Shown here: one piece after another, positions 1 to 55,900 of the stretch
How the letters are laid out: each line of letters opens with the position of its first letter
How positions within the stretch are numbered: position 1 is the first letter of the stretch
Assembly: GCA_950106755.1 (NCBI GenBank)
Contig: OX467089.1
Span: 24,657,345 to 24,721,344 of the forward strand
Origin: Climacium dendroides
Taxonomy: Eukaryota > Streptophyta > Bryopsida > Hypnales > Climaciaceae
Direction of reading: 5' to 3'
DNA length: 64,000 nucleotides
Notes under the pieces: generated by a model
Database searches by the model: none
What the model was told of the DNA's origin: nothing
Seen by the model: only the letters and a program-made list of their open reading frames with translations
Translations under genes and position numbers: made by a program

Positions 1-2
1 AG

Positions 3-230
3 AAGACCAAGATGGCAAGGGCGAGCATTCCAGCTCATACTAGAGATGCCAACATTACATGTTTCAATTGTAGAGGTGTTGGTCATAGATGGCAAGATTG
101 CAAGAAGACATCTCGCTAAGATGCGGTCAAAATTAACGCGTTTTGCTCTAGTTGCAGAATCAAGGACCATGTGGAGGCCAATTGTTGGAAGGTTCATCCT
201 AAACTCAAGCCCAAGAACACAAAGTAGGTG
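3..230 (+). pseudogene. gag nucleocapsid remnant with two CCHC zinc knuckles
   Basis: Reading from base 3, two zinc knuckles of the C-x2-C-x4-H-x4-C type are visible: the first from the Cys codon at 60 to the Cys codon at 99, the second from 144 to 185. A basic Lys/Pro-rich tail (KPKNTK) follows. A TAA at 117 separates the two knuckles, so the frame is broken. Paired knuckles bind packaged RNA in retroelement Gag proteins. The rest of gag lies upstream of the window. From 240 to 870 short open stretches (for example 303-605) probably belong to the gag-pol linker, but I recognise no domain there. Confidence 0.7.
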
Positions 231-876
231 AAGAGCAATGATTCCAAGGAAGCCAAGGCCACGAGAGAAGACTAGAAGTCATAGAAGTCGCGTTTCAAAG
301 AATTGGAGGCTAAAATGGTAGCTATGAGAGTCACTTTTGCTAAGGGGGCAACTTCATTTTATGTAGAAGGAAGTGACTATATGTTGTGTGGCATAGCTGA
401 TACTCGAACCACACCATTGGATGCTTATGCAATGACTAGAAATAAGACTATAGTGCACAATACACCACGAGGAGCAAGTTCAGGGTTGGATCTACAAAGA
501 GGTGAAGCCAACCACCAAGCTAAGCTGCTAGAGTCATTCACACTTGAAGATACGGTGCCCACCTCTTCTATAGTACCATTACATCACAATTCGAGTAGTC
601 AATAGGTTGCTTGGGCTCTACATGGTAATGGACAAGATAGAGGTGTTCTTTTTGATGCAGCAACCGCTGTTTGTCAAGCTCCTTTATTCACAGCATCCAT
701 GATTTCCCAAGCACAATTTAGTACTGCTACAGTGTTTCAATTGGCAGCTACTATGTGTGAAAACGGTGGCTCAGCACCGGTGAGCTCCATGGAAGCTGTG
801 CTTGAGCCATTGGCAGTGAGTGGACTGAAGCAAAAGGACTTTTATTAGCCGCTACTCGGGTCAAAACTATGCTAGC

Positions 877-1390
877 ATGTTGGGCCATAGAATGGTCCTC
901 CACTACCCCAGGGGTAGTGGTATTGGACAACTCCCAGTTGGGCCTAAAGGGAGAGTATTTACACCTCAACGGGTACTATTGGATTCCGGTACACAATCCT
1001 TGATGTTGGAAGTGTCAGCAATTGAAGGCTTGGGTTTGACTGAGGATGTGTCGAAAACGTGTCCGTCGACGATTTGTACTTCAATGGGAAGGACAAAGCA
1101 AGCGAAGGGCATCACGAGGGGCGAGTTAGTATTGTAGTTGCGTCAAGATGATGTCAAGGACGCTAGCTTCATGAAGGTGAAAGCCATAGTCATAGAGGCT
1201 AAATCATATGATGTTTTGGTGGGGGCTATGGTATTGTATCCTATGGGATTCACCTTGGACTTCTGGAAAGAAACAACATACTATAGACCGGGATGGCAAG
1301 CAGGAGATGGACGCATAACTCAACTGCCAATTCGATTTATACGAGTTCTTACTGATAATTTAGTTGATCTCTATTGTTTTGCTGGACTTA
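877..1390 (+). pseudogene. Retroelement aspartic protease domain, degenerate
   Basis: The segment contains the hydrophobic-hydrophobic-Asp-Ser-Gly active-site motif LLDSGTQ (Asp codon at 982), where Ser replaces the more common Thr, as in many pepsin-like retroelement proteases. It is followed by a hydrophobic stretch typical of the second half of such proteases (VLVGAMVLYPMGF near 1213-1251). A TAG at 1135-1137 interrupts the frame, which resumes unchanged directly after it. The same frame runs on into the methyltransferase, indicating a pol polyprotein in which protease precedes methyltransferase. Confidence 0.6.
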
Positions 1391-1677
1391 TAGATGAGGG
1401 TCAACTATGGATCAAGGAGGATTGCAAAGATCTTCTTATTGTCGCTTCGTTGGATGTCATTGAGCACCATGATCATCACGATGGTGAGGACATTGGGGGC
1501 CACATGTTGTACCGACCCGGCATGGAAATGGCATGGGATAGTACCACGGGACTACAAGAGGCGGCCAACAAAGTTACCCAGAAGGTGTGGCAACAATCAT
1601 TATTACCACAAGAGAACGCAGTGGTTGAAGGTGAAGACAACGATGGTCCTTGCTTGGACACTTCAACAATCCAATGG

Positions 1678-2715
1678 AAACCACCAAAAGAAGGTATAAT
1701 TTTTTTGGAGTTGTTTGGTGGCATTGGCACAGGGTTGGCAGCTGTATTGTAGGTGGGTATGAAGATGAAGCATTATATTTATGTTGATAACGATGATATG
1801 GCACGGCAAGTGGTCAAGCACCATGCTCGACGTTTATGTCGAGCATTTTCAACCTTATTATACACATATGCTATCATAACCGCGTTTTCTGCATTGCCAA
1901 ACAATATATCACTCATCTCACTCCAAGACATTGTCTGGTTGGGGGCGATAGACTTGGTTATTGCGGGATGGCCATGCCAAGGTATGTTTATGACTGGCAA
2001 ACAAAACGGATTGAAAGACAAACGTTCTTCAAAATTCCATGACATGGTGAAAATACTTTGGTATATTTAGACTTCTCAACAGTGGCCTCTAGGGTACATC
2101 ATTGAGAATGTACCAATGGTTGGTACATCACAAACCCATACGCTTAACAGTCTTCATCATGTACACAAAGTTCTTGGTATTCTAGTATTATTGAATGTTG
2201 CGGAGGTGAATTCTAGAGCTCGTAGGCTACGACTTTGGTGGACTAATTTAGCTCCACCGGAATTCTTGCATGCAGCAATACGACGTATTCATCGGCCTGA
2301 TTTATATATGAAGGACATCTTAGACCTTCATCGGTCACCACGGCGGGTTTACCACGATGATTAAGCACCACTTGTAGTAGTGAACCGCAAGGGTGAGCCC
2401 CAGAGAGCTTTACCAGCATTAGTGAGTTTTTCTAGGTCCTATGCATTCAAGAATAATGGTCCTGGGTTGGTGTGGGATGCCCGTACCGAAGAGATGGTTG
2501 AGCCCAACGCTGATGAGCAAGAACAGGCCATGGGGTTTCAAACGGGAATCACCCAAGCACCTAGCATTATTGAGTTTCAAAGGCGATATCTCATTGGCCA
2601 GGCCATGGATTTAAATTGTTTTTCATGGATTGTTTCACTTGTAACGGCCGAACAGAAGCGTTTAGCTTTGACATTGAATGGCCACTTGGGGTTCTATGAG
2701 CTGCAAGCGCTATGA
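1678..2715 (+). pseudogene. C5-cytosine DNA methyltransferase domain inside retrotransposon pol
   Basis: Conserved C5-MTase motifs occur in order and in one frame. Motif I is LELFGGIGTG (1705-1734), the S-adenosylmethionine site. Motif IV is AGWPCQGMF, with the catalytic Pro-Cys codons at 1972-1977. Motif VI is IIENVP (from about 2098; Glu-Asn-Val at 2104-2112). A motif-VIII-like SRARRLRLWWTN lies near 2209-2244, and a C-terminal block AMGFQTG followed by GQAMDLN (about 2530-2620) stands for motifs IX-X. Stops at 1750, 2068 and 2362 break the frame, but there is no frameshift across roughly 1 kb. No chromodomain, BAH, UBA or PWWP region is seen, so it is a bare catalytic domain. The enzyme would methylate cytosine in DNA; this copy is inactive as it stands. 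Whether it is closer to DNMT3/DRM or another class needs a tree. Confidence 0.85.
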
Positions 2716-3092
2716 AACCATCAAGTTCTACGACACCATACTTGATGGTTGGGGGCGAAGACGCTTGTACAACTCATCCATAGGACATGTGAAAAAATAA
2801 TGTATTTTTCACAAATCCAAAGACAAGCTTGACTAGTTGAGATTAATTGGCCAAGCCAAAGATGGAATTAGAGGAAGACGTGGACAAGTTGTTTATTGAA
2901 GAGGACATATCGAATCAAACAGAAGAACTATGGCACTTAAGCCAAGTTGAAGAATGATATGGTATGGCGGGTGTGGAGCAAGATGAAGCTGCTCCAACTG
3001 GTATGCAATAGCAACCAAAGGTGGAAAAATCTGTTTCAAAGGAAGAATGGAAGGAAACGGTAACCTAGGAAACTTGGAAACCGTTAGTAGGC

Positions 3093-4036
3093 TTGGAAGA
3101 TGAAACAGAGGAGAAACAGGAACAAGAGTTCTTCAAGAGTCATGTGGATTACTTCGCTTTTAATTTGAAGGACTCCCAAGTCCTTAAGGAACAAGAGGTA
3201 CGTATTAACTTGACAGATGACGCACCGATTTATCACAAGCCGTACAAGTATAGTGAGGTAGAAATCAAAATGATTCAAGACCGAACGAAGGAGTTGTTGG
3301 AGGCCGGATTGGTGGAATTAGCGCCCTCAGACTGTGAGTATGTATCAGTGATGGTCATGCCATCTAAGAAGGATATTTTTGATAATTAGACTGAAAAGAG
3401 GATGTGTGGGGATTATCAGAGAATTAATAAATTCACGAAGTCCAACCGTTATGTAATGCCAACACCGGAGGAGAACTTTGACGCCATTGGCCATGCTAAA
3501 GTATTTAGTACTTTGGATCTCCGGTCGGATTATCACCAACTTGGTATTCGAGAAGGTGATAAGGGAGAGACAGAGTTCTGAGGAATTGATGAGGATGGGA
3601 AGGATCGACTTTATCAATGGAGGTTTCTACCTTTTGGCTTGAAAAATGCCCCTACTGAGTTTCAAAGGGTTATGGACCATATCTTTTCAGGCTTGGATTT
3701 TACATTGATGACATTATTGTCTACAGCACAAATCAAAATCAACACAGAGCTCACTTGAAGAAAGTTTTTGCTAGACTGAGACTTCGTGGCTTAAAACTAC
3801 ATCCAAACAAATGCAAGTTTTATTATAACCGTGTGGAGTACTTGGGCCACATGATATACCCTGGTGGATTGGGTGTGCTAGCTAGCAAAGTGGAAGTGAT
3901 GATTTCTATACCAAGACCAAAGGATGTGAGTAGATTGCAAGCATTTTTGGGATTGTGCAATTACTATCGGAAGTTTGTGAAGACGTTTAGTGCCATTGCA
4001 AAGCCATTAACCGTACTAACAAGGAATGATCAATGA
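3093..4036 (+). pseudogene. Ty3/gypsy reverse transcriptase, broken
   Basis: Typical gypsy RT blocks are seen: the N-terminal HKPYKYS/ELLEAGLV region, KRMCGDYQRINK, STLDLRSDYHQLGI, LPFGLKNAPTEFQRVM, and the catalytic YIDDIIVYS with Asp codons at 3707-3712. After these come the palm/connection blocks LKLHPNKCKF and FLGLCNYYRKFV with KPLTVLT. TAG at 3387 and TGA at 3579 interrupt the first frame, and a frameshift just before the YIDD motif (about 3690-3700) moves the remainder to another frame, open to 4036. The LG(L)CNYYR block is the signature of Ty3/gypsy rather than copia. Expected RNase H and integrase do not follow. Confidence 0.88.
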
Positions 4037-4559
4037 TTAAGGAAAAAAGGAGTGGTTGTGAAACCACTTTCTACACCTAGTGTATTGAGTACTATAGGAT
4101 TTTTATTTCTTTACTATGCTATGGATGTTGTCAGTGTTAGTGTTGATGGTGATAGGATGTTTTTTGCATTACTACCATTATTTGCAAGATTTTACCGTGA
4201 TTGTGACTTACATCACAAGTCACGAGGCGTTTTTCCTATGACCACGGTGTCCACCGTTGGTCAGGAGCTATTGGATCTTGGTGTGGTTAAGTTACTAGTC
4301 AATTACAGAATCTATTATTTACATTTGCACGCTTTCTTCTATGTTGGCTCGTTATGATCTTGGCATGATGTGTTTGTGCACGACAAAGCGCTAGCCATCA
4401 ACATTAATTGAAAGGGTCAATGAATCCTTTAACAAAGGGCGAGCAAGCAACTTATATCACAAACATGGTCAAGCGCATTCTCAAATTTTTGCAAATGGAG
4501 TAGCGCTCTTCTTCGGCTTCAATTTTTACTTTCTTGTGGATTTGATTGAAGTTCTATAG
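4037..4559 (+). other. Unassigned 3' part of the retroelement
   Basis: About 520 bases between the RT and the LTR-like block. An open stretch 4052-4357 codes a hydrophobic 101-residue peptide with no RNase H or integrase motif that I can see. It may be degenerate pol, 3' untranslated element sequence or a nested insertion. Confidence 0.3.
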
Positions 4560-13045: not shown

Positions 13046-14886
13046 ATGACAGAGAAGAAGCCCTGTCGATGGGGCCCCCTAATTCGCCAAGCGAGCGTCT
13101 TAGGCCGCTTCAAGAATAAGCTCCGCTTGAAGAAACTCGAATGGAAACGTTTTTACGAGCAGATGTGGGGTCCGACCCATCCCACCGCCGACTCAGAGCC
13201 TGAATTTCATCAAGACTGGGAAACTAGTTACCACACATCCGAAGGCAGCACAAACTCCAACTACAACAACTCCCAGTACTTCGACTCCCTCACCCCCGAG
13301 GAAGCCCTTGAGCTTTACCAACAAGCTCAAATCCCAACTTTACAACAAGTGCATCATCAACAAAGCACAGTCCCCTTGATCCCTTCTCGATTTCATCAGG
13401 AGTTTCAGGGAACGCAAGTGGGGGAACAGTTTGTACTCGACGATGGGACTGGTAACAATCCTTTACAAAATCAGGAATTGCAGATGGCGCCATGGATGGA
13501 GCACGTGGACTCTTTTAACTCGACGCCCTTATGCGTGAGTGAGTATCTGGATGCGAACGACTCGTATGCGGACGATTCAGTGTCGGAGTGGCTGCAGCTG
13601 GACGAACAAATGAGAATGGAGAGAAATTTCTCGTCGGCTATGAGCGTGGACTCCACGGGGCACACGGATGTGATGATGCGAGATGATGGGAACTCATCTG
13701 CGATTCCGATGAGGCCGGAGGAGCGGTTGCTGTGGTTTAAGAAGTTTTTTGAAATTGGACCGGAAGAAGCGTTGACAGGGCCGAGGACGCCGCAGGGATC
13801 AAGGGGGTGGAGAGTCATGGTGCGGATCGTGTGCGCTTGTAGAAAACTGTCCACGTTGTTAAGGATGCGGAAGATGGAAAAGAAATCGTCGGTGAGTGAA
13901 TTTATATCCGATCTCCTGGGTTTTCCATGTCTTTCATATCTGCTGTTGTATAAATCTTCACCTGTGTAGTATCGAGATTTCGTGGTTAGAAAATGAACAA
14001 TTTGATTGGACCATGTTGTGAAATATGTGATTCCAACGAAGGGGCCGAATTTCATATCCCCAGTCAATACCAATGCAGAAGATTGCATGCGTTGGACAAA
14101 GTATAAATGAAATTGGACGAAAGAAAGTCCGCATAATGACCTACTCAAAAGTGCTTATAGAAACATGAAAGCCCATTGTGGGCCTCTTAGACCGTGCGGA
14201 CTAAGTAGCCCAAATTGGACCCTGATGATTTTTTTAGCACTTTTGAGTGGGGTCATTATGCGGACTTTCTTTTTTCCAATTTCATTTATACTTTGTCCAA
14301 CACATGCAATCTGCATTGGTACTGGCTGGGGATATGAAATTCGGCCCCTTCGTTGGAATTACATATTTCACATGATCCAATGAAATTGGTCATTTTCAAA
14401 CCACGAAACCTCGGTGCTACAGCCTGGGTGAAGGTGTATTGGTGATGTCTAAACCATGAATCCTTATTCACCCAAGCGTTAACATAACCTCCCCTACAAT
14501 CTGAATCCCGACCTGCAACCAACCTTTTGCAGGGTCAGATCATAGTCAAGAAGCAGCGACACCGCGGATTCGGTGAGAACCGAAGCCAACTCTACAAGGG
14601 CGTGCGAAGACGCAACGGAAAGTGGGTGTCTGAGATTCGCGTGGGTCAGACCAACGAGAAAGTATGGCTGGGTTCTTACGACACGGAGAAGGAGGCCGCT
14701 CTTGCCTTCGACGCAGGGAGGTACCACTGCAGTACCAAGCGGTGTCGCAGCTTCAACTTCCCTGACTCGCCTCGCCTGCTGGGTCCTCAAAAGAACCTCC
14801 GTGGCATGTCTCCCAAGGACAGGAAGAAGGCCATCCAGAGATTGGCAGAAGATCACGCCAAAGCTTGCGCATCACAAACTCTCTGA
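13046..14886 (+). CDS. AP2/ERF transcription factor, two coding exons
   Basis: Exons 13,046-13,891 and 14,533-14,886, joined in phase 0 with donor GTGAGT and acceptor TTTTGCAG, give 399 residues. The start is the ATG two bases after a strong leader acceptor; an in-frame upstream ATG at 12,962 would lie in the intron. Exon 1 opens with a basic RFKNKLRLKKLEWKRFYEQMW segment, then a Gln/Ser/acidic region that could be an activation domain. Exon 2 holds one AP2/ERF domain (residues about 304-357): YKGVRRRNGKWVSEIR, VWLGSYDTEKEAALAFDAG, ending FNFPDSP. Such domains bind GCC-box or DRE-like DNA in the nucleus. With no second AP2 or B3 domain, it belongs to the ERF family broadly; a subgroup is not assigned. 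Two oddities: the intron is mostly an inverted repeat, and the frame beyond the TGA stays open over a tandem repeat. Confidence 0.88.
13974..14412. repeat. Large inverted repeat filling the ERF intron
   Basis: The left arm (about 13,974-14,163) and right arm (about 14,225-14,412) are reverse complements over roughly 185 bp with few mismatches, separated by about 60 bp. The outer ends read GAGATTTCGTGGTT and, in reverse complement, GAGGTTTCGTGGTT. The repeat sits wholly between donor 13,892 and acceptor 14,532. It looks like a fold-back MITE. If transcribed, the pre-mRNA could form a long hairpin. Confidence 0.85.
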
Positions 14887-19364: not shown

Positions 19365-19515
19365 CACTACTAGAAAATTTCGTATTTCTGTTGTTTTGGT
19401 CGCGTTGATCCGGTCAAAATCTGATAGAAATCTGTTGAAACCAACAGATTTCTGTCAGATTTTGACCAGATCAACGCGACCAAAATTAACAGAAATACGA
19501 AATTTTCTAGTAGTG
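19365..19515. mobile_element. CACTA-type hairpin MITE
   Basis: A 151-bp element with termini CACTACTAGAAAATTTC and the exact reverse complement at the right end; the two halves pair almost throughout. It is flanked by a 3-bp direct repeat GTG (19,362-19,364 and 19,516-19,518). CACTA termini and 3-bp target duplications are hallmarks of the CACTA superfamily. Confidence 0.9.
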
Positions 19516-19549
19516 GTGTAGAAGTAGGCAATGAGAGCGTCAAAAATTG

Positions 19550-21870
19550 CTTGGAAACATGAAACGAAGTTTCACTATAACAGCCAAAGCAACAAAAAAG
19601 GCAGACATTTTTGAAGCAAAGTCAAACATCTTTGGAAATAGGGCCTTAAAAAAGATGCCACATGCAACAAAAGCATTCATCCACAAATATCATCTCAACT
19701 CCCAAACTTATTTACCACCAATATTAAGCACAATATTTTTTGATACCTTCTTCTCTACAACACCTAGAAAATGAATTTGCCTATAAACACCTTCATGACT
19801 CAAAAACACCATAGATTTTTAATCATGGAAGGATGTAGCTCCCATGACTACAATAGTTACCAAAAATATTTAGATTATTGCATCAATAGGTGCATTCTTC
19901 TTATATATAGTTAACCTTGGAAATTCATCAACTCCAAAAATTTATGTGAATTGCATTTTAAGAGGACTTTTTGTAAAACCCTCAAAATAGAAAAATAATA
20001 GAAGCATGTACAACTTCACCTCACTTGACCTTTTCTTCAATTATACAAATGTACAATCAAGCTATCAATAGTGCGTAAGACCCATCATTTTCATAGCTTC
20101 TTCAATTGGAATCTCCAAGAAAATCCTCCAAATCAATCCAAGTACACTTTGACCTTGTAAATTTGACTCTTTCTTCAATCATACAAATCCATGGCAAGCA
20201 ATCCATAGCCTATAAGACCTATGATTTTGATAGCCTCTTCAACTGGGTGCTCCAAGAATATCTTCCACATCAATACAAGTAAACTATGACCTCAAAAATT
20301 TTGACTTTTTCTTCAATCATTCAAACACGTAAGTGATCAATCTGTAGCATATAAGACTTGTAATTTTGATAGCCTCTTCAATGAAATGCTCCAAGAATAT
20401 CCAATACACCAATCATGTACAAGTGCTCTATTCTCATGAATTTGACCCTTTCTTCAATGTGACATTCTAAAATATCTTACATGCTTGCCACTGATACTAT
20501 CAATATTTAAGGCTTATCCAAAGCCAATGAATCTTTGATGATATGATAAGTACTCGAGTCCAAAAAAGCCATAGGCAACAAAAGCATTCATCCATGAATA
20601 TCATCTCAAATCCCAAACTTATTTAGCACTAGATTAAGCACACTTAATTGTGCCACATGTTCTATTTTTTAACACCTAAAAAAATGAACTTGCCTATAAA
20701 CATCTTCATTACTTGAAAATACCATAGAATTTTTAACCATGGAAGGATGTGGCCCCCATGACCAAGGTGGTCATCACAATATTTAAATTATTGCATCAAT
20801 AGGTGCATTCTTTGTATCTACAATTAACCCTAGAAGGATGGAGAGGCTCCAAAGTGGCCAATGGATGAATTTGTATCTACAATTAACCATAGAAATCCAT
20901 CAACTCCAAAAATTGACATGAAAGTGCATTTTAAGGGGGATTTTTATAAGATCCTCAAAATATGAAATTGATACAAGCACATACAACTTCACATCACTTG
21001 TTTTATTTCCTCAATCATACAAATATACAAACAAGTAATTAATAGTGCATAAGACCCATCATTTTGATGGCCTCTTCAAGTAAACATTCCAAAAATATTC
21101 TCCACATCAATTTAGGTACACTCAAATCTCTTGAATTTAACCCTTTCTTCAATCATATAAAACCCACAAGCAATAAATCCATAGCCTATAAGGTCCATAT
21201 ATTTGACAACCTTTTCAACAAGATGTTCTTAAGAATATCCAACACGTCAATCTAAGTACACTATGACCTCATGAATTTGACCCTTTCTTCAATCATATAA
21301 TTGCATAAGTGATCAATCTATAGCCTATAAGATCAATTTGTAGTCTCTAAGATCCACAATTTTATCGGGCACATTGGCAAATCAATCCAGGTATAAGTGC
21401 TCTATCTTCATGAATTTGACCCTTTCTTCAATGTGACATTCTAGAGAAACTTACATGCTTGCCACTGATACTATCAGTGCTTGAAGCTTATCCAAAGCCA
21501 ATGAGTCTTTGGCGATATGATAAGTACTTGAGTCCAAAGAAGCAACAAGCAACAAAAGCATTCATCTATGAATATCATCTCAACTTCCAAATTTGTTTAA
21601 CACCATGTCAAACACACATAATTGTCATACATTCTTTTCTCCAACACCTAAAAAATGAACTTGCCTATGAATACCTTCTTAACTCAAGAACACCATAGAT
21701 TTTTTAACCATGGAAGGACATGACCCCATGGTCACCACAATATTTAGATTATTGCATCAATAGGTACATTCTTTGTATCTACAATTAACCCTAGAAGGAT
21801 GTACAAGCACAAAAGTGGCCAATGAATGGATTTCAAAATATATAGATATATATGAATCTAATGTTTTATC
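19550..21870. repeat. Hierarchical tandem repeat array 1
   Basis: A unit of about 0.9-0.98 kb repeats: the phrase AAAGCATTCATC recurs near 19,670, 20,582 and 21,556. Inside each unit a shorter element of about 110-140 bp repeats up to four times, marked by TTTGACCCTTTCTTCAAT followed by ATACAAAT, CCTATAAG and CCTCTTCAA. Related arrays lie at 31,620-33,065 and 35,600-37,370. No coding capacity. Confidence 0.8.
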
Positions 21871-30536: not shown

Positions 30537-30686
30537 CACTACTAGAGAATTTCATTTTTCTGTTGTTTTGGTCGGGTTGATCCGGTCAAAATCTGACAGA
30601 AATCTATTGAGATCAACAGATTTCTGTTAGATTTTGACTGGATCAACGCAACCAAAACAACAAATAAATGAAATTTTCTAGTAGTG
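30537..30686. mobile_element. CACTA-type hairpin MITE in duplication copy 2
   Basis: A 150-bp sibling of the element at 19,365-19,515, with CACTACTAGA and TCTAGTAGTG ends and a 3-bp target duplication AAT at 30,534-30,536 and 30,687-30,689. The matching place in copy 1 (about 18,548) is an empty site with a single AAT. Confidence 0.92.
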
Positions 30687-30979
30687 AATGGCCCCTACAT
30701 GCATATAGGAATCAAGTCTTTAACAAATACTAAAAATTTCAAGAACACAATGAATCACAACTTGAGTAACTAAAATTTGAATCATCATGATACCTACTAA
30801 ACAAGAGACATATTTGGGCAAAGGAAGACGGCAATTTGTGTACTAGGCTTTCGGATGATATCAACAATGTGTATTAATAGCACCACAATTGTGTGTCTTT
30901 TTCTACTTCTAGTCTCCAAAGAAATTTGATAAGTGTAGCCCTAGGAATTCAACAAATCAATTCAAATTCAAAATTTTAC

Positions 30980-31171
30980 CACTAGTAGAAAACGCAAGAA
31001 TTTCAACAGAATTTTGTTGTTTCGGTCGTATTGTTTTGGTCACTGAACAACAAATTTCTGTTGAAATTAACAAAAACCTGTTAATTTCAACAAAAACTTG
31101 TTGATCAGCGACTGAAATAATGCAACCAAAACAACAAAATTCTATTGAAATTCCTACGTTTTCTACAAGTG
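30980..31171. mobile_element. Second CACTA-type hairpin MITE in duplication copy 2
   Basis: A 192-bp element with termini CACTAGTAGAAAAC and GTTTTCTACAAGTG and a TAC target duplication on both sides (30,977-30,979, 31,172-31,174). Copy 1 has no insertion at the corresponding place near 18,878. The core shares the TTGTTTTGGTC phrase with the other CACTA MITEs. Confidence 0.88.
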
Positions 31172-31619
31172 TACAATAACATGCCATGGCATGAAATATA
31201 TCAAATGAATAAATATGTTTCTATAATCCAGTCATTCAACTTCTTCAAAACAAATACAATGTCAATACAAATTGCAAATTACGAATTCTATTATCGATTT
31301 GACATTAGATTATGTATTGTTCTACTAATCAATAGGTTTGTCTAGCACACACAAAAGCCTCAATCAACAATGACAACAATTGAGAGAAACCATGACTGTT
31401 GATGAATAAAAAAGCAATAAACTGAAAAAACTCACTTGTATAGAATCATGATATCCGAGAGGATAGAAAGCACGTGTTAATCTTTGAAATTGGAAGACGA
31501 AGCTTCCACTATTGCACTAGAATTCTTCATGATCCCCTTGTAGAACACAAGGAACAAAGTGGTGATGAAGCTACAACAGGAAACCTCATAGATCAAAAGA
31601 TAGAAACCTCATAGATTCT

Positions 31620-33065
31620 ATGGACAATAGAAGCATTCATTTATAAATATCATTTCAACTCCCAAACTTGTTTACCACTAGAAATTTTGAAACATTCTTT
31701 TCTCAACAACTAAAAATGAACTTGCCTATGAATACCTTCAAGACTCAAAAACACTGTAGATTTTTAACCTTGAAAGGACATGGCCCCTAGGACCAAGGTG
31801 TGCACCAAAATATTCAAATTATTGCATCAATAGGTGCAACCCTAGAAATTCAATCAACTCCAAAAATTATGTGAAATTGTATTTTAAGAGGACTTTTTGT
31901 AAAACCCTCAAAATAGAAAAATAATAGAAGTATATAGAATTTCACTTCAGTTGACCTTTTCTTCAATCATATAAATGCACCATTGATGAATTTTCAACTT
32001 GTCAAATCCATCATTTTGACAACCTTTTCAATTGGACACTCCATGAATATCCTCCACGTCAATCCAAGTATACTATGACCACATGAATTTGTCCCTTTCT
32101 TCAATCATTCAAATGCACAAGCAAACAATCCGTAGCTTATAAGACTCATCATTTTGATAGCCTCTTCAACTAGATGCTCCAATAATAAACAATATATTAA
32201 TCCAAGTACACTTTGACCTCATGAATTTGACCCTTTTTTCAATCATACGAATCCATAAACAAGGAATCTATAGCCTATAAGACCCAAAATTTTGACAACC
32301 GCTTTAATGAGACATTTTAAAAATATTTTGTATATCAATCTAGATATAAGTGCTCTATCCTCATGAATTTGATCCTTTCTTCAATGTGACATTCTCAAGT
32401 ATCTTGCATGCATGCCACTGATACTATCATTATTGAAGCTTATCCAATCTTTGACAATATGATAAACACTCGAGTCCAAAAAAAGCCATGGGCAACAAAA
32501 GCATTCATCCATAAATATCATCTCAAATCCCAAACTTGTTTAGCACTACATCTCAAAGTTTAGACCCTATGGTTTGTCAACAATTATCATGTGGTTATCA
32601 TTGTTTCATGGGTTTGGACGTTAATTATAATTTATAACATCGTTACAATGCATTAATTAACATCATTATTGCATTGTTACAATGCATTATTTGCAATTGC
32701 ATTGTAACGATGTGAAGTAATGCATCGTAATGATGCAATAAATTGTAATTAATGTGCAAAACCATGAAACAATGATAATCACATGATAACTTTTGATAGA
32801 CCGTAGGGTTTAAATTTTGTAATGTAAGTTAAACATACTTAATTTTTACATGTTCTTTTTTCCAACATCTAAAAAAATGAACTTGTTTATGAACACCTTC
32901 ATTACTTGAAAATATCATAGATTTTTTAACCATAGAAGGACGAGGCCTCCATGACCAAAGTGGTCACCAAAATATTTAGATTATTTCATCAATATGTGCA
33001 TTCTTTGTATCTATAGTTAATCCTAGAAGGATGGAGAGGCCAAAAAGTGGCCAATGGATGAATTT
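31620..33065. repeat. Hierarchical tandem repeat array 2
   Basis: Same composite unit as array 1; AAGCATTCAT landmarks lie near 31,628 and 32,500. Four short subunits fall between 31,940 and 32,400. It is interrupted by the hairpin element at 32,554-32,819. Confidence 0.75.
32554..32819. mobile_element. 266-bp fold-back element inside the tandem array
   Basis: The ends read CAAAGTTTAGACCCTA and, in reverse complement, CAAAATTTAAACCCTA, and complementarity continues through almost the whole element (for example ATTATCATGTG, ATCATTGTTTCATGG). The related unit near 20,617 lacks it. A clear target duplication was not identified. Confidence 0.82.
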
Positions 33066-33140
33066 CAAGATTGTTATAGAAAGAAGAATGGAGAGTTTTT
33101 TTTGAAGCAAGTTGACATCTTGTGTTTCAAAGATGTTCAT

Positions 33141-35344
33141 TTAAACTTTAAAGGACCATAGTTCCTTTGGGAAGAAAATGGATTTTGGGTAGGTTTATAT
33201 GACCTCAATATTTGGCATGACTTTTTGATATTTTTGAAGAAGATAGATAAACATATTAAGTTGTATGGGAATATAATTTTTATTTAATTAATGTTTAGGA
33301 GAAAAGTTATGCCATAACAAGCCCCTTTTTAGTTTTCTAAGCAACAAAACAAAACTACCAAAACTACCAAAACTTGATACATTATATTTTTTCTTCTTGA
33401 AAAGCTCTAATTCATAGCATTTGTATTAGTGATGTAAAAGTTGTTGGGCTTCTTGTTTTCTGGGCAATTAAAGCATCATGTTCAAAAAATAATTTATAGA
33501 ATTATTTTTTGAACAAATATTTTATAATTTAAAAAAAAACTTCTATTTTTAATCCCTAAAGTTCCTTGACTATGATGTCACCAAGAATACTCCAAAACTA
33601 CCATTTTTAGTACAAGTACCAAATTTTTTAAAAATAATACATTTTTGGACACATGGAATAGTACAATCTTGTATTGTTTTGGTTTGAAGGATTGTGGAAA
33701 AAATTTCAAAAATTTCCACCGTGTAGATTGCAAGAAATTAGCATTTAAATTGAGAAAAATCCTTTTTTTGCCCTGCAATAAACAATAAAGTTGTACTTCA
33801 CAAGGTCACATTTGTATGAAAAAATGTCCCTAATGGTGGTTCTTCTTAGGATTCATTCTTCAAGGCAAGTTGGCTACATACTTGAAAATTTTCAAATCAT
33901 TTGGAATTGTACAACATATAGGAATAAAATAGTAAATAGAAAGAAGTAGAGAATGATTCAAAATACTAAATTGTTGAGAATTTAGTTATGGAATTGAAAA
34001 ATGCCAATCCCAATGGTTTTAATTTTGTGTGATAAAAAATCTACATCTTATGATTTTTTTCCAAAAATATTGAAAATTGAATTAAATAAAGGATTTCAAA
34101 GTTTATTTTAGAATAGAAGATTCATAACTACCTGCAAATTAAAATTCCTCATAAATTTCATCTCATTAATTAAAATGTAATGATTCAAAGCTTTCCACAT
34201 GTATATAAATCTAGAAAATCAATTCAAATTTTTGTTTTTAAAAGTAATTTTTTCATATCTTCCAAGACTATTTGGCTAAGGAAAAAATCTACATATCATA
34301 CAATAATTTTTTAACCATGTAGTCAAAAGTTATGAAAATTGTTGAAAGTAAAAAAAAAAATTGTCCACAAATTGTGTGAAAATTTCAGAAAATAGAAATA
34401 AAAATTCCATTTGTAGTGAGTTGCTCAAAATTGCTATATTGCGAAAAAAAATGCAATTTGGTCCTTTAGGGATTAAACACCCAATGGACCACATTTTTCA
34501 ACTATAATTATCAATTATGGTAGTCCAATTCAATTTTCATTCGATAACATAAATTCACGTATGGTCACTTCATCATGAATCTAGGTATTTGATTTCATGT
34601 ATCAATTTAAACCTTCTATTATTTTGCATTTACCATTAGTAGACTATTTTTTTTACTCATCAATTCCAAATTATTCTTCCAAGTTGCATTTTATGAAAAA
34701 TCATTGTCATTGTAAGCTCTCAAAATTTGAAAAGCATATAGACATTTAGAAATTCAACTTAGTTTAGTTATTCACTACTCCAAAATAAACTTTGAAATCC
34801 TTTATTTTACTCAATTTTCAATATTTTTTGAAAAAAATAAAACTGTAGGATATAGATTGTTTATAACAACATTTCAACCATTGGAATTGGCATATTTCAA
34901 TTCCATAATTAAATCCTTAACAATTTAATATTTTGCATCATTCTCTACTATTGTCTACTTACTATTTTTTCCTATATGTTGTACAATTCCAAATGATCCG
35001 AAAATTTTCAAGCATGTGACCAACTTGTTTAGGAAAAAGAATCCAAAGAGTAATCACCATTTTGGACATTTTTCCATAGGAAAGTGAGCTTGTGAAGTGC
35101 AGCTGCCCTATTTTTTGCAGGGCTAAAAAAATGATTTCAGTGAATTTGAATGCTTATATCTTGCAATCTACACAATGGAAATTTCTGAAATTTTTACCAC
35201 ATATTCCCAAGTCAGCATACTATAAGATCCTATGGTTATATGTGTCAAAAAAGTTTTTTTTTTCAAAATTTGGTACTTGTACTAGAAATGGCAGTTTGGG
35301 AGCAAATTTTGGTGAAAATATAGTAAAGGAGCTTTAGGGGTTAA
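33141..35344. mobile_element. Nested fold-back transposon cluster
   Basis: Ends of the type CCTTTAGGG(G/A)TTAA occur at 33,549 (inverted), 34,476 and 35,344, and a partner left end TTAAACTTTAAAGGACC at 33,141. Arms 33,549-34,130 and 34,770-35,344 are reverse complements over about 575 bp; both carry a conserved LQST-WKFLKF-type reading frame in opposite orientation. The left-end sequence 33,141-33,330 resembles 47,474-47,640, showing a dispersed family. The nesting order is not resolved. Confidence 0.65.
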
Positions 35345-37375
35345 ACTTCTTATATTCATCATACATCAACAAGGATTTGTATTACAAGAAGCTTTATTCT
35401 TGTAGCATTAACTTAATTTGTTAGTGAGATAACTATTCACATTTTCCCAAGGTAGTTGTTGTAGATGCAAAGCATCCTCCCTTTTGACAAAAGTCAATGA
35501 AATAAACTTTTATTCATACATCAACTCCTAAAGTTTATGTAAAATTGTATATAAAGAAGGATCTCTATAAAGCCTTCATAATATGAAAATAAAAGAAGTG
35601 TTGCCTCTTTAATGAGACATTTAAGAATATCCTCTACATCAATCTAGTTACATTCTAACCTCATGAAGCTGACCCTCTCTTGAATGTGATGCTCTAGAAT
35701 ATTTTATATGCTTGTCACAGACTATCATTACATGACTTATCAAAAGCCAATGAATTAAACTTTTAAACTTTTACTTGCATTTTAAGAACGATCTTTGTAA
35801 AACCCTCAAAATAGGAAAATAATATCACATACAACTTCACATCACTTCACATTTTTTTCAATCATACAAACATACAAGCAAGCAATCTATAGCCTATAAG
35901 ACCCATCATTTTGACAGCGTCTTCAACGAGATACTCTAAGAATATTTAGCACATTACTCCAAATAGACTTTGATCTCTTGAATTTGACCCTTTCTTCAAT
36001 CATACAAATGCACAAGCAAACAATCTATAGCATGTAAGACGATTATTTTGATAGCATCTTCAATTGGACGCTCCATGAATATCCTCCGTAGCTTGTAAGA
36101 TCCATTATTTTCTTGATTATTTTGACAACCTCTTCAACTAGACATTCCAAGAATATCCTCTATGTCAATCCAAGTACACTATGACCCCATGAATTTGACC
36201 CTTTCTTCAATCATTCAAATGCACAAGTGATCAATTTGTAGCTTGTAAGATTCGTAATTTTGACAAGCCAATTTTGATAGCCTCTTCAATTGGATGCTTC
36301 AAAAATATCCAATACATCAATCTAGGTACATTTTGACCTCTTGAATTTGACCTTTTTTTCAATCATACAAATGCACAAGCGATCAATCTGTAGCCTGTAA
36401 GACCCATCATTTTGATAGCCTCTTCAATTGGATGCTCCAAGAATGTCCTCAACATCAATTCAAGTAGACTTTGACCTCTTGAATTTGACCCTTTCTTCAA
36501 TCACACAAACAAGCAATCTGTAGCATGTAAGATCCATTATTTTGACAGCTTTTTCAACCGGATGCTCTATGAATATCCTCTATAGCTTGTAAGACCCATT
36601 ATTTTGACAGTCTCTTCAATTGGATGCTCCAAGAATATCCTCCATATCAATCTAAGTACACTATGACCCCATGAATTTGATTCTTTCTTCAATCATTCAA
36701 ACGCATAAGTGATCAATCTGTAGCTTGTAAGACTTGTAATTTTGACAGCCTCTTCAATGAGACGTTCTAATCTTGAATATTTGGTACATCAATCTAGGTA
36801 CAAGTGCTCTATCCTCATGAAATTGATCCTTTCTTCAGTATAACATTCTCAAATATCTTGCATGCTTGCCACTAATACTATTATTAGTTGAGGCTTATCC
36901 AAAATCAATGAATTAAACTTTTATTCATTCATCACCCAAAAAATTTATGTGAAATTGCATTTTAAGAGGGATCTTTGTAAAATCCTCAAAGTACCAAAAA
37001 AATATGAGCATGTTGGACTTCACATCACTTAACTTATTCAACTATACAAGCACAAAATAATGTAATCAATTTGTAGACTGTATGCTCTACAATTTTGACA
37101 GACCCATCAATGAGACGTTCTAGAATATCCTACACGTCTGCACCTAGATATCCTACGTGTAGGATATTGACAATTTTGACAGACCCGTCAATGAGATGTT
37201 CTAGAATATCTTACACGTCTGCACCTAGATATCCTACCTAGATATCCTACGTGTAGGATATTGACAATTTTGACAGACCCGTCAAATATCTAGGTGTAGT
37301 CTAGCCTTATGAATTTGACTTTTTCTTCAATGTGACATTCATCAATATCTTGTTCTTCAATGTGACTTTTGGAAA
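35345..37375. repeat. Tandem repeat array 3
   Basis: From about 35,600 the short TTTGACCCTTTCTTCAAT unit repeats roughly eight times, one clear period being 137 bp (36,358 to 36,495). Between 37,080 and 37,300 a different local duplication of about 95-120 bp carries the near-palindrome ATATCCTAC-GT-GTAGGATAT twice. No gene. Confidence 0.75.
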
Positions 37376-48408: not shown

Positions 48409-49105
48409 TATTGACCTTTCCTCCAATCATCACTAGTCTTCTAGTTTTAGATCTTTTCCTTTGGATTCTTGGAAGGCATCTTCGAACTGGACAATCTTTA
48501 ATTGCTGTGCGTCTTGTAGTTTTAGATTGACACTTTTTGGTTTTGGGATGGCATCCTTCGGGCCAATCTCGAATTGCTATTGGTCCATTATTTTCTTCAG
48601 AAAGTGTTGAAGTTGTGTTCAAATTTTGATTTTCCATAGTCATTCTCATTCTCATTGGATGGCATCCTTCGGGCCAATCTCGAATTGCTATTGGTCCATT
48701 ATTTTCTTCAAAAAGTGTTGAAGTTGTATTCAAATTTTGATTTTCCATAGTCATTCTCATTCTCATTGGATGGCATCCTTTGGGCCAATCTCGAATTGCT
48801 ATTGGTCCATCGTCTTTTTCAAAAAGTGTTGAAGTTGTATTCAAATTTTGATTTTCCATAGTCATTCTCATTCTCATTGGATGGCATCCTTCGGGCCAAT
48901 CTCGAATTGCTATTGGTCCATCGTCTTTTTCAAAAAGTGTTGAAGTTGTATTCAAATTTTGTTTTCCCACATAGTCATTTTCATTGGAAGGATTAGATGC
49001 CATTGTTGCTGGATTATGTCCTTGTTGCCATTCTTGAACTGTAATGAGTTCATTAAACTCAATTTTAGACTGCGGTGAATTCATTCTCAAGCATTTGTCT
49101 TCCAA
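48398..49105 (-). CDS. Repeat ORF with SUVH-like RDWPEGC motifs, possibly truncated
   Basis: An open frame of up to 235 codons; the first ATG within it is at 49,084, since the upstream end has no ATG. Four nearly identical 37-residue repeats (111-bp period, GATGGCATCC at 48,547, 48,658, 48,769 and 48,880) each contain GPIAIRDWPEGCHP. Weaker versions lie before (ITVQEWQQGHNP) and after (TAIKDCPVRRCLP), so about six units in all. The motif resembles the VRDFPPGCG element in N-terminal regions of plant SUVH histone H3K9 methyltransferases. No SRA, Pre-SET or SET domain is present. The last codons and the stop fall inside the terminal repeat of the adjoining transposon. It may be a gene fragment expanded by tandem duplication, or a small gene; expression is unknown. 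Confidence 0.5.
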   Translation of the reverse strand: MEDKCLRMNSPQSKIEFNELITVQEWQQGHNPATMASNPSNENDYVGKQNLNTTSTLFEKDDGPIAIRDWPEGCHPMRMRMTMENQNLNTTSTLFEKDDGPIAIRDWPKGCHPMRMRMTMENQNLNTTSTLFEENNGPIAIRDWPEGCHPMRMRMTMENQNLNTTSTLSEENNGPIAIRDWPEGCHPKTKKCQSKTTRRTAIKDCPVRRCLPRIQRKRSKTRRLVMIGGKVNINP

Positions 49106-49955: not shown

Positions 49956-52900
49956 CTACAAAAAATACATCTTGTTTCTTATTCTGACATGCACATTCTC
50001 AGGCACAATAGGGAAATAAGCTTGGGGATGACACGCCACTCTTCGCTTACTTCTCTTAGCAAGATACCAAACTCGACAACGGAATGCAGCCAAGTGGGCA
50101 TAATAAGCGGGTGTCGCCATTGAGACAGCTCGTGTACATCGCCCAAAAGTATAACACAATTTATTTGTAAGATTTTCAAAGTCATCTGCCCTGCAACCAG
50201 TGATCCAGATGTTGCATACAAAGTTAGCTCATTCCAATGCATACCATCACAATTCCATCCAAACTTTGGACTATGTTAACATAGATTAGAGTTAATCGTG
50301 AAGGTGTATCCAGTTTGTAGAAGGGGTGTCAGAGGAAGGTTTAATTAAAAATAGTACAAAAGAAACACAACAAACTCCATCAGACTCAGTTTGGGTGCTT
50401 CAAGAAGTTCGGTCCTCTGTTTTTCTCAAACTCCCACTCCTGCTCCTTCATTGCACACACTTTCCGATTAACTAATACAATTAATCGGAAAGTTTGTCTT
50501 GTATGATTAACTCTATTATCTTTGAGAGTTGGGGTCTTGATAAGATTATTTGGCAACCCGTTTCCTATAGTGACAAGTATTTTTTGTTTTTCCCAATCTC
50601 AAGCGTCGAGATCTGCACTACCTGGGGGTATCAGAGCTGGCCCGTAGAAGACGGCGATTTCAGAATCGCGGTCTTAAACTCTCTGAGGGAGCTAGTGATT
50701 CTGGGAAAGAAGAAATACATGTTGCACACAATTTCGTAGATAACCTACAAATCGCAGAGCAGAGATCGCAACCGTTAATGAAGATTTTGAAGAACCAAGA
50801 CTCTGTTTCTAACTGGAAAAACTTACGTGAATTTGGTGCCATCGAATATCATATGATAGTGAGTGGGCCGACTTGTGCCTTTCTCGCCTGCATGGCTGCA
50901 TAAGTAGAAGTCGAACTGACGAGGGTGAACGATCTTGTCATCTACGACTGTGCCTGGCGGCACATTCAAATCGCGGCAACCTGAAAGTGCTGCTGAAGTC
51001 TTCGGAGGATTCTTTGCATATTTTTTGTCGCAGATTCTCCGGAAGAGCCGAGTGTGGTGCCTCTTCTGGACCACTGCAAATGTAATACAAGGCGCGTACT
51101 CACACTGGGATAATTCAGTGCCCGCTTGATATGCAGCATCTTGCACTGCCTTCACCTCCGTCTCAAGCACCTCTTGGAATTGGCTTTGCCCCACGCCATC
51201 TCGATAGAAAATAATTACCTGTAAGTAAACCATTTAGAATTGCATTACGATGAAGTAGAACCTCATACTCGTTAATTAAATGGGTGCATCACAGAGTGCC
51301 AAAACTTTTGCAAGGGTGGACATCCGTAATCTAAGGCAAGTTGGAATGTGTTTCAAAAGCAAATTTCAGAGTGTAAAAGGTGACAGTCAAATGCCTAAAA
51401 GTCGAAAGTGTATGACCAGTACAGATTTGAGGTTTTGATGGCCGATTAATGGGTTTTGGTTGGACAACTCCAATCTGCTCCAGTTTCACTTGGGCTACTC
51501 AAATCTGTACCAGTTCCGTACCGTAAGCCTCAACCGCGGGCGTCAATTTCGTGAAATTCCACCAGCGTACCAAATGTGACCATATTATTCACTTGGTGTA
51601 TGGAAGCCTTTAATGTACACTAGTTCAGAAAGTTACGTATTATCTAGTGAACAATTTGGTAAGTTGAAGTTTCTGAGGGCCATAGTAATAGTCAAGATTT
51701 CTAAACCACCCTTCACTGGTTCCCACATGCACTAATCTGACTCCCATGGATGTGCTGACCTGAGGAAGCGAGTTCTGATTTGCTCGGTGCCATTCCAAGA
51801 GAAGATCCAAAACCATTTCCTTTAGGTTCTCAATGATTTCAGCGTTTCGTTTTTGAACTTGATGGCGTGCAAAGTAGCGTCCTGAATCAGGCCAATCGTT
51901 ACTAGCCACGACTGCTGCAATAGATGGTTCGTCGGGGTCGCACATGTCAGGGTGCGTTACGTCTGCCCCGAAAAATATGCAAGTCCTATTATGAATGCTA
52001 GCAAGCATTCCAACGTGATCAATAGTCTGATGGAGACGGAAATTGCGTCCGCCACACTTTATATTAATCTTCATGAGCAAGTTCGTGGCAGCAGTCTTGT
52101 TGAAGCACTTGTCACAGAGGTAACCTGCACAGTACACCCAAAATTAAGCTCAGCAAAATGTACACATCATCAGAATTCAAGAATACTATACCTCCTTGAT
52201 AATCAGCAGCAGGAATAGAATCCGCATGGTAATGAGATGTTGTAAGATTAACTTCATCCCTTGTGAATCACATATTTGCACTCAGGTGATGTAATATAGA
52301 TTTTGTCACCACAATGATGTGAACTTGATACTCACTCTGTTGCAAGGGGTAGTAATTGACAACTTGAACAGGGACTCCTCTCTCAATGTCGCCAAAGTAC
52401 TTGATTTCGTTGTACAGCGTGCTTCGCTTCCCGTCAACGATTACAATGATCAATTGACAATATGATCCTGATTCCTTCTCATACTGAGGGATGGCATTTA
52501 GAATCAAATTGAATGTCGTGCTTAAGGAATCTAAGTGACTTGTATGCGCCCTGCCAGTCGTTTGAGGTTTAAGCATGGTTATTCCCATTTCAGATGCACG
52601 GCTGCCTAATGAGAACCACCACAACAACGTATGAACGTTACTCAAATTGTCGACAACATCGGGAAGTCAAAGGAGACTTCAATTGTTCCCCAATTGTAGA
52701 CTTAAATTAGTTTTAGCACAAAAAATGCCCTGCAGAGAGAACCCAATTCAAGAAGATACCACCGTTGAACTCAAAGCTGGGCAATCCATCAATGGGTTTT
52801 TGGAGTTCACAATTTGATTTGACGCGCAGGTGGAAAGTCCTACAAACCCTAATTTATGCGTGATCTGATACAATCAATGTGTTGCTCGACTTCAACCTAG

Positions 52901-55900
52901 AACTTAAGAAGTTGAACGGCATGGATTCTTTCTTAGACCGTTTAGCCTCAGAGAATAAGATTTTGAGAACTTTCGGCTGATGAAAATTACCTCATAAGGA
53001 ACTGAATCCATTCTGTTCGTTTCGTGAACTTCCCTCCCGTTAAATCACAAACGCCCCACCATTTGATTTTAGCATCATGGAGAGCTTGCTTCTGATTCCA
53101 TGCCCAGAAGCCCATCCTGCCTGGATCAACAGGATCCTTGTCATCCTTGTACTGAATGATGGGTGCTCTCAATACTCGGCTTTGAACTTCCGTCATTGAC
53201 GTGTGGAAGCCGAGATCAAAAGCAGAACAGTATGGATCACTGGTCACCAAATCATGAAACTGGTTGTATGAGACAACGATAGTGAGAACTTCAGTTTCAG
53301 AGATAGTAGAGTGACGGAAACCCTGTGGGTTTTAGCTGTATGGTTACTATGTACAGTAGAACATTAGTAGGGAACAGTGACCTAAGTTACTCAACAAACG
53401 CTTAAATTATGAAGTACCTTGTAGGACGGTGGATATCTACGGAAAATTTTTCCTCCATCATGTCAGCTATTCGTTTACACCGTAAGTCTGGATTCCTCAA
53501 AGAATTTTGAAACTGAAATTCTTTGTCCTTGGTAATCCCTTTCCCCATAAATCTTGACGAAGGGGAGAGCTTTGCCAGTTCCATGGGGACATAGACTTTT
53601 CCTTTGGATGATTTCAGGATTAAGGCTGGCAAAAGTTTCCACACTATATCTTTGTCGTACTTCTCCTTAAAATAGTCAGTAACGCGGCAACCTTCGACAT
53701 TTCCTGGTTGCTTAGTGAACGTCAGTTGACATGTTGCGTGTTTAGAAAGCCCTGAAATCTTGAACTTTCGTATAACAGCTCCAACATAATAATCCAGCAC
53801 CACTTCAGTGCCCATCAAAAGATCAAGACAGAAATCTCTGCAGTTACAAAGAATGACTTAAGACATCAACATTGTGCACGGGAACTTGATTGTTCAAACC
53901 GCATTTCATAAGGGAGGTACAGTTCTCAGAGGCCTTCAAAGAGATTGTAAACAAATACTAGCCTATTCTGAACACTGAACCTCATGTTTTGTAATGTACT
54001 GTACAGTACTATAAACGAAATCTTTAGTGAACAAACTATATTGAAGGCTTTAGACACAACAACCTCTCAGCATAGAGTTTGTCATTTGCAGAGTGCTTAC
54101 CTCTGTTGGTGGGTTATCTCTCCGTGTTTCAGGAATTTCGAATTCAGCCCTCTGTCCATCATTTCCACCACATATTCCAGAACAGTTTCCGTTTTGAGGT
54201 CTTTTGCGAAGAAATCACTGCTAGAAACATCCACATTGAGGACTAGGCCCTGTTTTGTTGGCCTTAAGCTTTTGAAGAAGCCAAAAGAAGAGTTAATGAA
54301 CCTGTTAACTGGACTACTAAACGAAGTATCCGGATGATACAAACAGGAACCTGCCAGGACTACCTTACTGTGGTTCCGGTGTTGTTCTCGCAAAACACAT
54401 CCAAGTGCTTTGATGTATTCTTGATATTTTGAGGTGTCATCACCCGAGATATAATCTTGGAGAGACTTGCCAATAAGAGTTGCTCTAGGCTCCAATTTTA
54501 CATCATAATATTCCTGGTTCTGCCTATATAGTACAATGCACACAGATGAGTAACTTCAAGGCCGGTGTTTGTATTATCATACATGCAAGAGGGGTTGGGA
54601 GAAAATTACCTTTCTAAAGGCGGGGGATAATAGCGCTCGCTGAGTGTTCCAAATGGAAATATCCCATTACTGTACAGAGAGTCACGTCCATCATAAACCA
54701 ATGTTGGCTGACTACCAAACATCTCTTTAATTTTATCTTTCACAAAGTCTAATATTTTTGCTCTTAAAACATCTGATACTCCCGGTGTTATAGTCATCTT
54801 TTTAGCATGAATGTTTCCAAATTTGAAGGAATCCTTCACTTTGAAATGGTTGACTAGGACAATTTCACCCTGCACATTCAAAGGCATGTAATTAAACTCA
54901 GAACAATGATTTATTCCATTGATACATAGAGTGAGACTCATTATCAATACCACAATCAGAGCTGCATAAGAAGCCTCAATACCTGCTACACAATCAATGG
55001 CAGCAATTCAGTCACAGCTTTGTAAGAAAACTACTGAGCAGGACCATCAGTACCACCACATTGTGATTTTCATATGAAACGGTGCGATTCAAAGCCTACA
55101 GTAGGTTCGTTGCTTGTGTTAATACTCATTCGAAGGTCTGCTAGTGCAGCAAAAGTCACAGTAAGATGACTCTGAAATACCTTTCTAAAACTTTTTTTGC
55201 AAAACCCGACTTCCTTTGCAAAAAAAAGAGGAACAAAATTCTGAACTGAAGACGATTGTATGTCTTCATCCACAATTGGCATATAGAAGAGCCGTCATTT
55301 CAAAATTGTGAACATACGGGATGATGAATATCGATCAAGGAATCCTATTAAGAGAACGTCCTCAACGTGAGTTCTCTGCACTTCTTGATAATTATAGACT
55401 TACGTTTGTTTGTGCTTTACTCTATTGCACCTTTTCCAGAAGAAATAGCAATTACTTTAAATAGAACATGTTCCGTTCGCTGTGATTAGCAAGAGCATGA
55501 AAGCCTACCCAAATACTGCAGCGTTTTCACTTTTAAGCGACCCAAATATTCTAAAACACGCCCGTCGTCAAGTCAAGGATCTCAAGTCAAGCAGACTCGA
55601 TGGGGTTCTCAACAATGCTGGTGCTACTTATCCATATCAGCATTATGAGCATGGCATGCAGACCGCAAGTGATGCACCCATGGTTTAACGTGCTTACATT
55701 CTATTGCAACAACAGAAAACTTTTGAACAGATTATAAAGTCATGTTGTAAGAGCTCTGTACCCTTCCTGAGGTTGCTCTCTCAGTTGGTCTCGCAGCGAG
55801 TGATTTTATACCGGTGTCCTCGGGAGGTGCGCTTCCAAAAAGGGAGGATATACTTGATATGAGTCCTGGGCTGGGTGGACGTCCCAAGGAAGATGGAGTG

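Follow-up and report, generated by a model that had tools for sequence, protein, structure and literature searches.

Retroelements that carry a Dnmt3-type methyltransferase domain were published in 2018 by de Mendoza et al. (PMC5890265). According to the parts of that paper used here, KnitGypsy-Dnmt3 of the charophyte Klebsormidium nitens combines gypsy domains with DIRS-like repeats, and for DIRS elements of dinoflagellates a marking of the element's own DNA before insertion was proposed. A second paper, likewise drawn on in part (PMC12344493), places some DNMT3 members within retrotransposons (long terminal repeat (LTR) Copia, DIRS) of streptophytes and dinoflagellates, citing the 2018 paper, and describes DRM as restricted to streptophytes. 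In the current study a stretch of 64,000 nucleotides of Climacium dendroides (Bryopsida; GCA_950106755.1, contig OX467089.1, positions 24,657,345 to 24,721,344), hereafter the window, was analyzed. An initial annotation, made from the letters of this stretch, had proposed a C5-cytosine methyltransferase (MTase) embedded in a Ty3/gypsy polyprotein between protease and reverse transcriptase (RT), and had correctly referred to the charophyte and dinoflagellate reports. The embedding is supported by the window copy and by many relatives, and the annotated liverwort and Sphagnum relatives support the suggestion that the range of such elements extends to land plants.

Window positions 1-4385 are the remnant of a gypsy-type retroelement on the forward strand, whose 5' start lies upstream of the window and whose 3' end is at 4385. 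The aspartic protease (916-1341, with DSG at 982-990) and the MTase (1672-2709) share one reading frame (frame 1) over 916-2709, which ends at 2713-2715. By tblastn the protease was 46-47% identical to those of the homologous proteins P0018 and P0044 (E 6e-37 and 1e-39, respectively); its match to PF13650 was weak (E 0.043, below the curated cut-off). Within the MTase, motif I (FLELFGGIGTG) begins at 1702, followed by Pro-Cys-Gln with the catalytic Cys codon at 1975-1977, Glu-Asn-Val at 2104-2112, R..R.WWTNL ending at 2250, the motif IX/X-like NADEQEQAMGF at 2506-2538 and LIGQAMDLN at 2590-2616. The gypsy RT downstream (3225-4033, 61-67% identical to the RT of P0058) is read in frame 3 (3225-3704) and then in frame 2 (3701-4033), with a frameshift near 3701-3704, and is cut before RNase H. 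When pieces of the window were compared with Pfam, the MTase piece containing PCQ matched PF00145 (E 3.7e-7) and the RT piece at 3659-4033 matched RVT_1 (E 1.4e-13), while the other eight had no match over the curated cut-off. The claim of ordered C5-MTase motifs, in frame with a protease and followed by a gypsy RT, was borne out by these positions, and the PF00145 match and the closest homologue show that the motifs are not a chance occurrence. The extent first proposed, 877-2715, does enclose protease and MTase, but the element itself runs from upstream of the window to 4385.

Two CCHC zinc knuckles of the gag end were read by eye on the forward strand at 60-101 and 144-185 (frame 3, with a stop between them). 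The remainder of gag is located 5' of the window (L031:8262-8960, equal to G000:C38:24656606-24657304) and is 42% identical to the gag of the Marchantia protein P0044. At the other end, the 3' tail of the element (4046-4385, forward strand), which ends GCACGACA, is 88.9% identical to L051:1426-1766, located downstream of the PHD finger in another copy. No match to RNase H, integrase or PHD was obtained in the homology search of the window copy and, since the RT joins almost directly to a tail that elsewhere follows the PHD finger, these domains have been deleted here. In-frame stops are present at 1135, 1750, 2068 and 2362, the last three inside the MTase. Given the stops, the RT frameshift and the loss of RNase H, integrase and PHD, the window copy is dead and internally deleted. 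Element homology stops at 4385, and a different repeat family begins at 4385/4386 in 13 of the 43 matches listed. The 4-mers flanking the window copy, AAGA and AAGC, share three of their four bases, perhaps by chance. Its two flanks come from different repeat families, and no empty site was shown for this copy.

With stops read as X, the window MTase was 64% identical to the environmental homologue P0001 over its whole length (346 residues; E 7.2e-153 in a search of 5.8 billion proteins). The motifs of the element MTase are linear and not permuted as in DRM, and stretches of it align to DNMT3A in order. A profile of the relatives was nearest to DNMT3A, and the fold was nearest to DNMT3A/B among solved C5-MTases; the single window sequence alone gave DRM first, DNMT3A second and a weak match to DNMT2. 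From its linear motifs and its nearness to DNMT3 in sequence and fold, the domain is predicted to be a DNMT3-type MTase. 

The window MTase query returned 43 proteins at E <= 0.001 among 6864 candidates, from Marchantia polymorpha (4), Calypogeia fissa (2), Sphagnum troendelagicum (1) and a bacterial metagenome-assembled genome (MAG; 1), and 35 without an organism name. Queries with the MTases of P0018 and of the Closterium protein P0078 returned 69 (7994 scored) and 28 proteins (7988 scored), respectively, 18 of the latter being named Closterium. In the relatives, those with names including P0017, P0028, P0044, P0048, P0079, P0102 and others from Marchantia, Calypogeia, Sphagnum and Closterium, the MTase adjoins protease and/or RT, with 46-72% identity to the respective query. 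PF17921 and PF00665 were located downstream of the RT in P0077, P0093, P0102 and P0107. Database labels of the relatives are hypothetical, unnamed or limited to one domain (DNA methyltransferase or reverse transcriptase); P0109, from a metagenome, is named for both. A scan of the virus collection with P0001 gave no match. The MTase of P0022, assigned to a Candidatus Obscuribacterales MAG, groups with the retroelement enzymes, and this protein is perhaps a plant contamination of the bacterial bin.

Many other copies were found in the genome (412.6 Mb searched), where PF00145 matched at at least 50 places and P0001 at at least 89 (79 of 205 candidates scored). Among the best 30 MTase loci, which were fetched, 25 were of the element type, and all 25 had protease and/or RT beside the MTase. 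The remaining five loci (L001, L020, L019, L028 and L029) were of host type. L001 and L020 contain DRM-type exons by eye, with motif X before motif I, and L020 also showed a weak match (27%) to the element MTase. L019, L028 and L029 are short host C5-MTase exons with GGFPCQDLS, neither of the element type nor DRM. A further stretch, L050, taken around two more PF00145 matches, appeared MET1-like by eye.

Nine more copies were examined over adjoining stretches. All nine contain protease-MTase-RT-RNase H-integrase-PHD, and eight of them also gag with CCHC. The Ty3/gypsy-type order protease-RT-RNase H-integrase, with H2C2 and rve, was thus present in nine of nine, whereas the window copy is without RNase H and integrase. 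In the eight copies examined for motifs (c36 was left out), the integrase motif WSLDF was found in seven and TDQG-EF in six (one with an inner stop), the H2C2 pattern in seven, and the C4HC3 pattern of the PHD finger in five (one with an inner stop).

The initial annotation had called for intact copies between LTRs. Copies with gag-protease-MTase-RT-RNase H-integrase were indeed found, but their repeats are split and do not form two full LTRs. Five of the nine copies have a DIRS-like arrangement, A1 ... B1-A2-B2, in which A is about 342 bp and B about 108 bp; A1 and A2 are 98.0-99.4% identical (differences of 4/340, 2/343, 2/342, 7/344 and 7/345). The fuller copies, which belong to a sister subfamily of the window copy, have the order A1-gag-CCHC-protease-MTase-RT-RNase H-integrase-PHD-polypurine tract-B1-A2-B2, with the polypurine run just before B1 and a B1/A2 seam of GACA-GC-TGTC or a near variant. 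These five copies are bounded by 4-bp target duplications, the flanking 4-mers being identical in three and differing by one C/T mismatch in two. One of the five, c48, has an additional inverted B at its 3' end. The split repeats were demonstrated for the young subfamily only.

A conventional Ty3/gypsy LTR element was rejected, as two full identical LTRs were sought and split repeats were found instead; because of these repeats the element is classified according to its polyprotein rather than among the conventional LTR elements. Assignment to the DIRS order was likewise rejected, with integrase motifs and 4-bp duplications found and no search aimed at a tyrosine recombinase made. The palindromic or inverted terminal repeats of two element copies, at L048/L049 (inverted B at the 3' end) and L033 (inverted A), are perhaps traces of the replication route.

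The MTase tree comprised 104 rows (85 proteins, 18 loci of the genome and one partial DNMT3A) and is effectively unrooted, the DNMT3A branch being very long (2.27). The genome copies form three lineages: that of the window, beside P0001-P0011; the young copies, with P0022 and P0068; and L013, with P0061. Among the 33 proteins matching both MTase and RT/RNase H, the MTase came first in 25, one of which (P0114) also has copia-type domains, and after in eight. All seven MTase-after-RT rows present in the tree fall within one 14-row clade (99/93), which holds none of the 25 with the MTase first. The separate clade with the MTase after the RT is represented by P0077, P0086, P0090, P0118, P0120, P0121 and P0124, yet several of its members share the PHD finger; either the domain was moved or it was captured twice. 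In the RT tree (26 rows, short search) one branch separates the two domain orders, a Closterium clade is present (100), and a set of Marchantia rows groups with the young copies of the genome (83). The MTase and RT trees are congruent in their main clades.

The ratio of nonsynonymous to synonymous substitution rates (dN/dS) was near 1 among the nine young MTase copies (0.68-2.09 over 36 pairs), and had a median of 0.60 among the eight old copies (28 pairs). Between the groups it was 0.21-0.27 in three of 80 pairs, the other 77 having saturated dS and giving no ratio. An identity threshold had assigned L013 to the young copies, but its position in the tree is a different one; its nine of the 45 young-young pairs were excluded from the 36, and the three usable between-group pairs may include it. 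The simplest reading is purifying selection while the elements were active, followed by neutral decay after insertion. Of the private changes in the nine young copies, 139 of 158 were C-to-T or G-to-A. By context these numbered 29 on about 52 CHG sites, 23 on about 60 CG sites and 87 on about 358 CHH sites, and were therefore most frequent per site in CHG and CG. This deamination pattern, counted in MTase-bearing copies only, fits methylated, silenced copies.

The window element is probably a dead and deleted copy of an old lineage of gypsy polyproteins with a DNMT3-type MTase, a type of enzyme with which hosts silence transposable elements; the MTase would be made with the polyprotein and would methylate the element's own new DNA. 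In such a cycle the MTase, produced as part of the polyprotein, would travel with the particle and act on newly made element DNA ahead of integration, so that each copy would carry its mark on arrival. The mark may protect against nucleases or DNA sensing, or may allow a quiet insertion that spares the host. Integration would rely on the DDE integrase that the element itself encodes, and the PHD finger that follows this integrase may guide insertion, in analogy to the chromodomains of chromoviruses.

Several observations weigh against this reading. Most of the copies read carry stops, and some have frameshifts or insertions; in L038 and L044 the MTase is split over two frames or pieces, and the RT is in pieces in L038 and L046. 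The second A repeat was not in its normal place in four of the nine copies (three with A1 only, and c32 with a rearranged, inverted A and without gag), and the window's own subfamily showed no split or terminal repeats in the stretches searched (L031 and L051). The young copies now decay neutrally, since their dN/dS is near 1. No K. nitens protein was among the matches to the window MTase, P0018 and Closterium P0078 queries; the likeness to KnitGypsy-Dnmt3 is one in which architecture matches, and the kinship rests on this and not on compared sequence. Moreover, no methylation was obtained in yeast with the K. nitens domain in isolation, a result which its authors, in the part of the paper used, call inconclusive (PMC5890265).

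The simplest competing explanation is a host MTase gene, or a captured MTase exon, that just happens to lie next to a gypsy insertion. Host genes do exist in this genome, as indicated by the two DRM-type exons and the MET1-like stretch recognized by eye, but an identical domain order recurs in many dispersed copies and in single polyproteins of other species, and the copies differ in their flanks and target duplications. The dispersed element-type loci with their common order led to rejection of this explanation, which had also been named initially as a potential refutation and is extremely unlikely. It is also rather improbable that the domain acts on RNA, or serves as a structural cofactor of the polyprotein, instead of methylating DNA. 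The failure of the K. nitens domain in yeast was shared by that of a long interspersed nuclear element (LINE), for which action on RNA was raised (PMC5890265, in part). On the other side, both SymbioDIRS domains methylated yeast DNA according to the same source. Furthermore, the profile and fold searches are both headed by DNMT3, while DNMT2 did not occur in the 46 profile matches at E 1e-5 or in the best 50 structural rows, its weak match to the single window sequence notwithstanding, and the catalytic Cys-Gln and Glu-Asn show little or no variation among the relatives.

A different purpose of the enzyme would be to serve the host or restrain the element, with self-promoted methylation limiting copy number and host damage and thereby keeping both alive. 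The Discussion of PMC5890265, in the portion used, mentions this idea as a possibility, and the heavy deamination of the copies, with CG and CHG above CHH per site, is as expected of methylated DNA. However, host methylation of any transposon would leave an equal trace, and we regard a role of this kind as unlikely, the marking of the element's own new DNA before insertion being preferred.

How such an element inserts is suggested by the palindromic seam together with the target duplications, which led to a tentative model, itself rather doubtful, in which gypsy-type elements integrate from a circle that the MTase marks before insertion. The palindrome at the B1/A2 boundary, GACA-GC-TGTC, equals the two outer ends plus two bases. 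Normal reverse transcription would yield a B-A ... B-A molecule, whose closure at an A2/B2 seam would produce a two-repeat circle. The integrase would then cut both strands of the inner palindrome after CA, which would leave processed ends and generate an A...B-A-B copy with a 4-bp duplication, just as is found in the genome. If true, this would represent a distinct life cycle, conserved from zygnematophyte algae to land plants, in which a gypsy integrase acts on DIRS-like repeats and the payload is self-methylating.

Elsewhere in the window, a probable Argonaute gene of several exons lies on the reverse strand at 50823-55007 (extent from open frames), with a Piwi match in 51643-52143 and a PAZ match in 53405-53857. 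An AP2/ERF-like domain on the forward strand (14488-14883) scored 32.5 bits against a curated cut-off of 33.3. Together with the DRM-type exons of the genome, the Argonaute and AP2-like matches support a streptophyte host. Dense diverged repeats, in direct and inverted copies, occupy 19365-21833 and 30537-37128, and a tandem repeat of about 111 bases (48546-48985) lies within an open frame of the minus strand.

Compared with the known systems, the C. dendroides elements are of the KnitGypsy-Dnmt3 kind, with a Dnmt3-type domain in a gypsy Pol and DIRS-like repeats, the repeats being those of the young subfamily. The part of PMC5890265 used here describes the K. nitens element as intronless, with an unpermuted Dnmt3-type domain inside its gypsy polyprotein and with repeats said to be DIRS-arranged; the host lineage differs, and the K. 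nitens text examined mentions neither a PHD finger nor target duplications nor where in Pol the MTase is located. The open-access literature yielded no report of such elements from bryophytes, although one in the subscription literature is possible. In the same open-access literature, neither their presence in liverworts, Sphagnum and Closterium, nor integrase-type target duplications, nor the PHD finger was found. Methyltransferase-bearing gypsy elements are extended from one charophyte to land plants, among them the model liverwort Marchantia, in which the role of the enzyme can be tested. SymbioDIRS-Dnmt3 of dinoflagellates, as described in the part of PMC5890265 used, likewise has a Dnmt3-type domain in Pol and A-coding-B-A-B repeats, and its domain order varies between sub-lineages. 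Unlike the C. dendroides elements, which have an H2C2-rve (DDE-type) integrase and 4-bp target duplications, it uses a tyrosine recombinase. The least expected feature is that DIRS-like repeats are apparently inserted by a DDE integrase, and the present elements provide a clear case in which split repeats, thought to be a mark of tyrosine-recombinase elements, occur together with a DDE-type integrase and target duplications.
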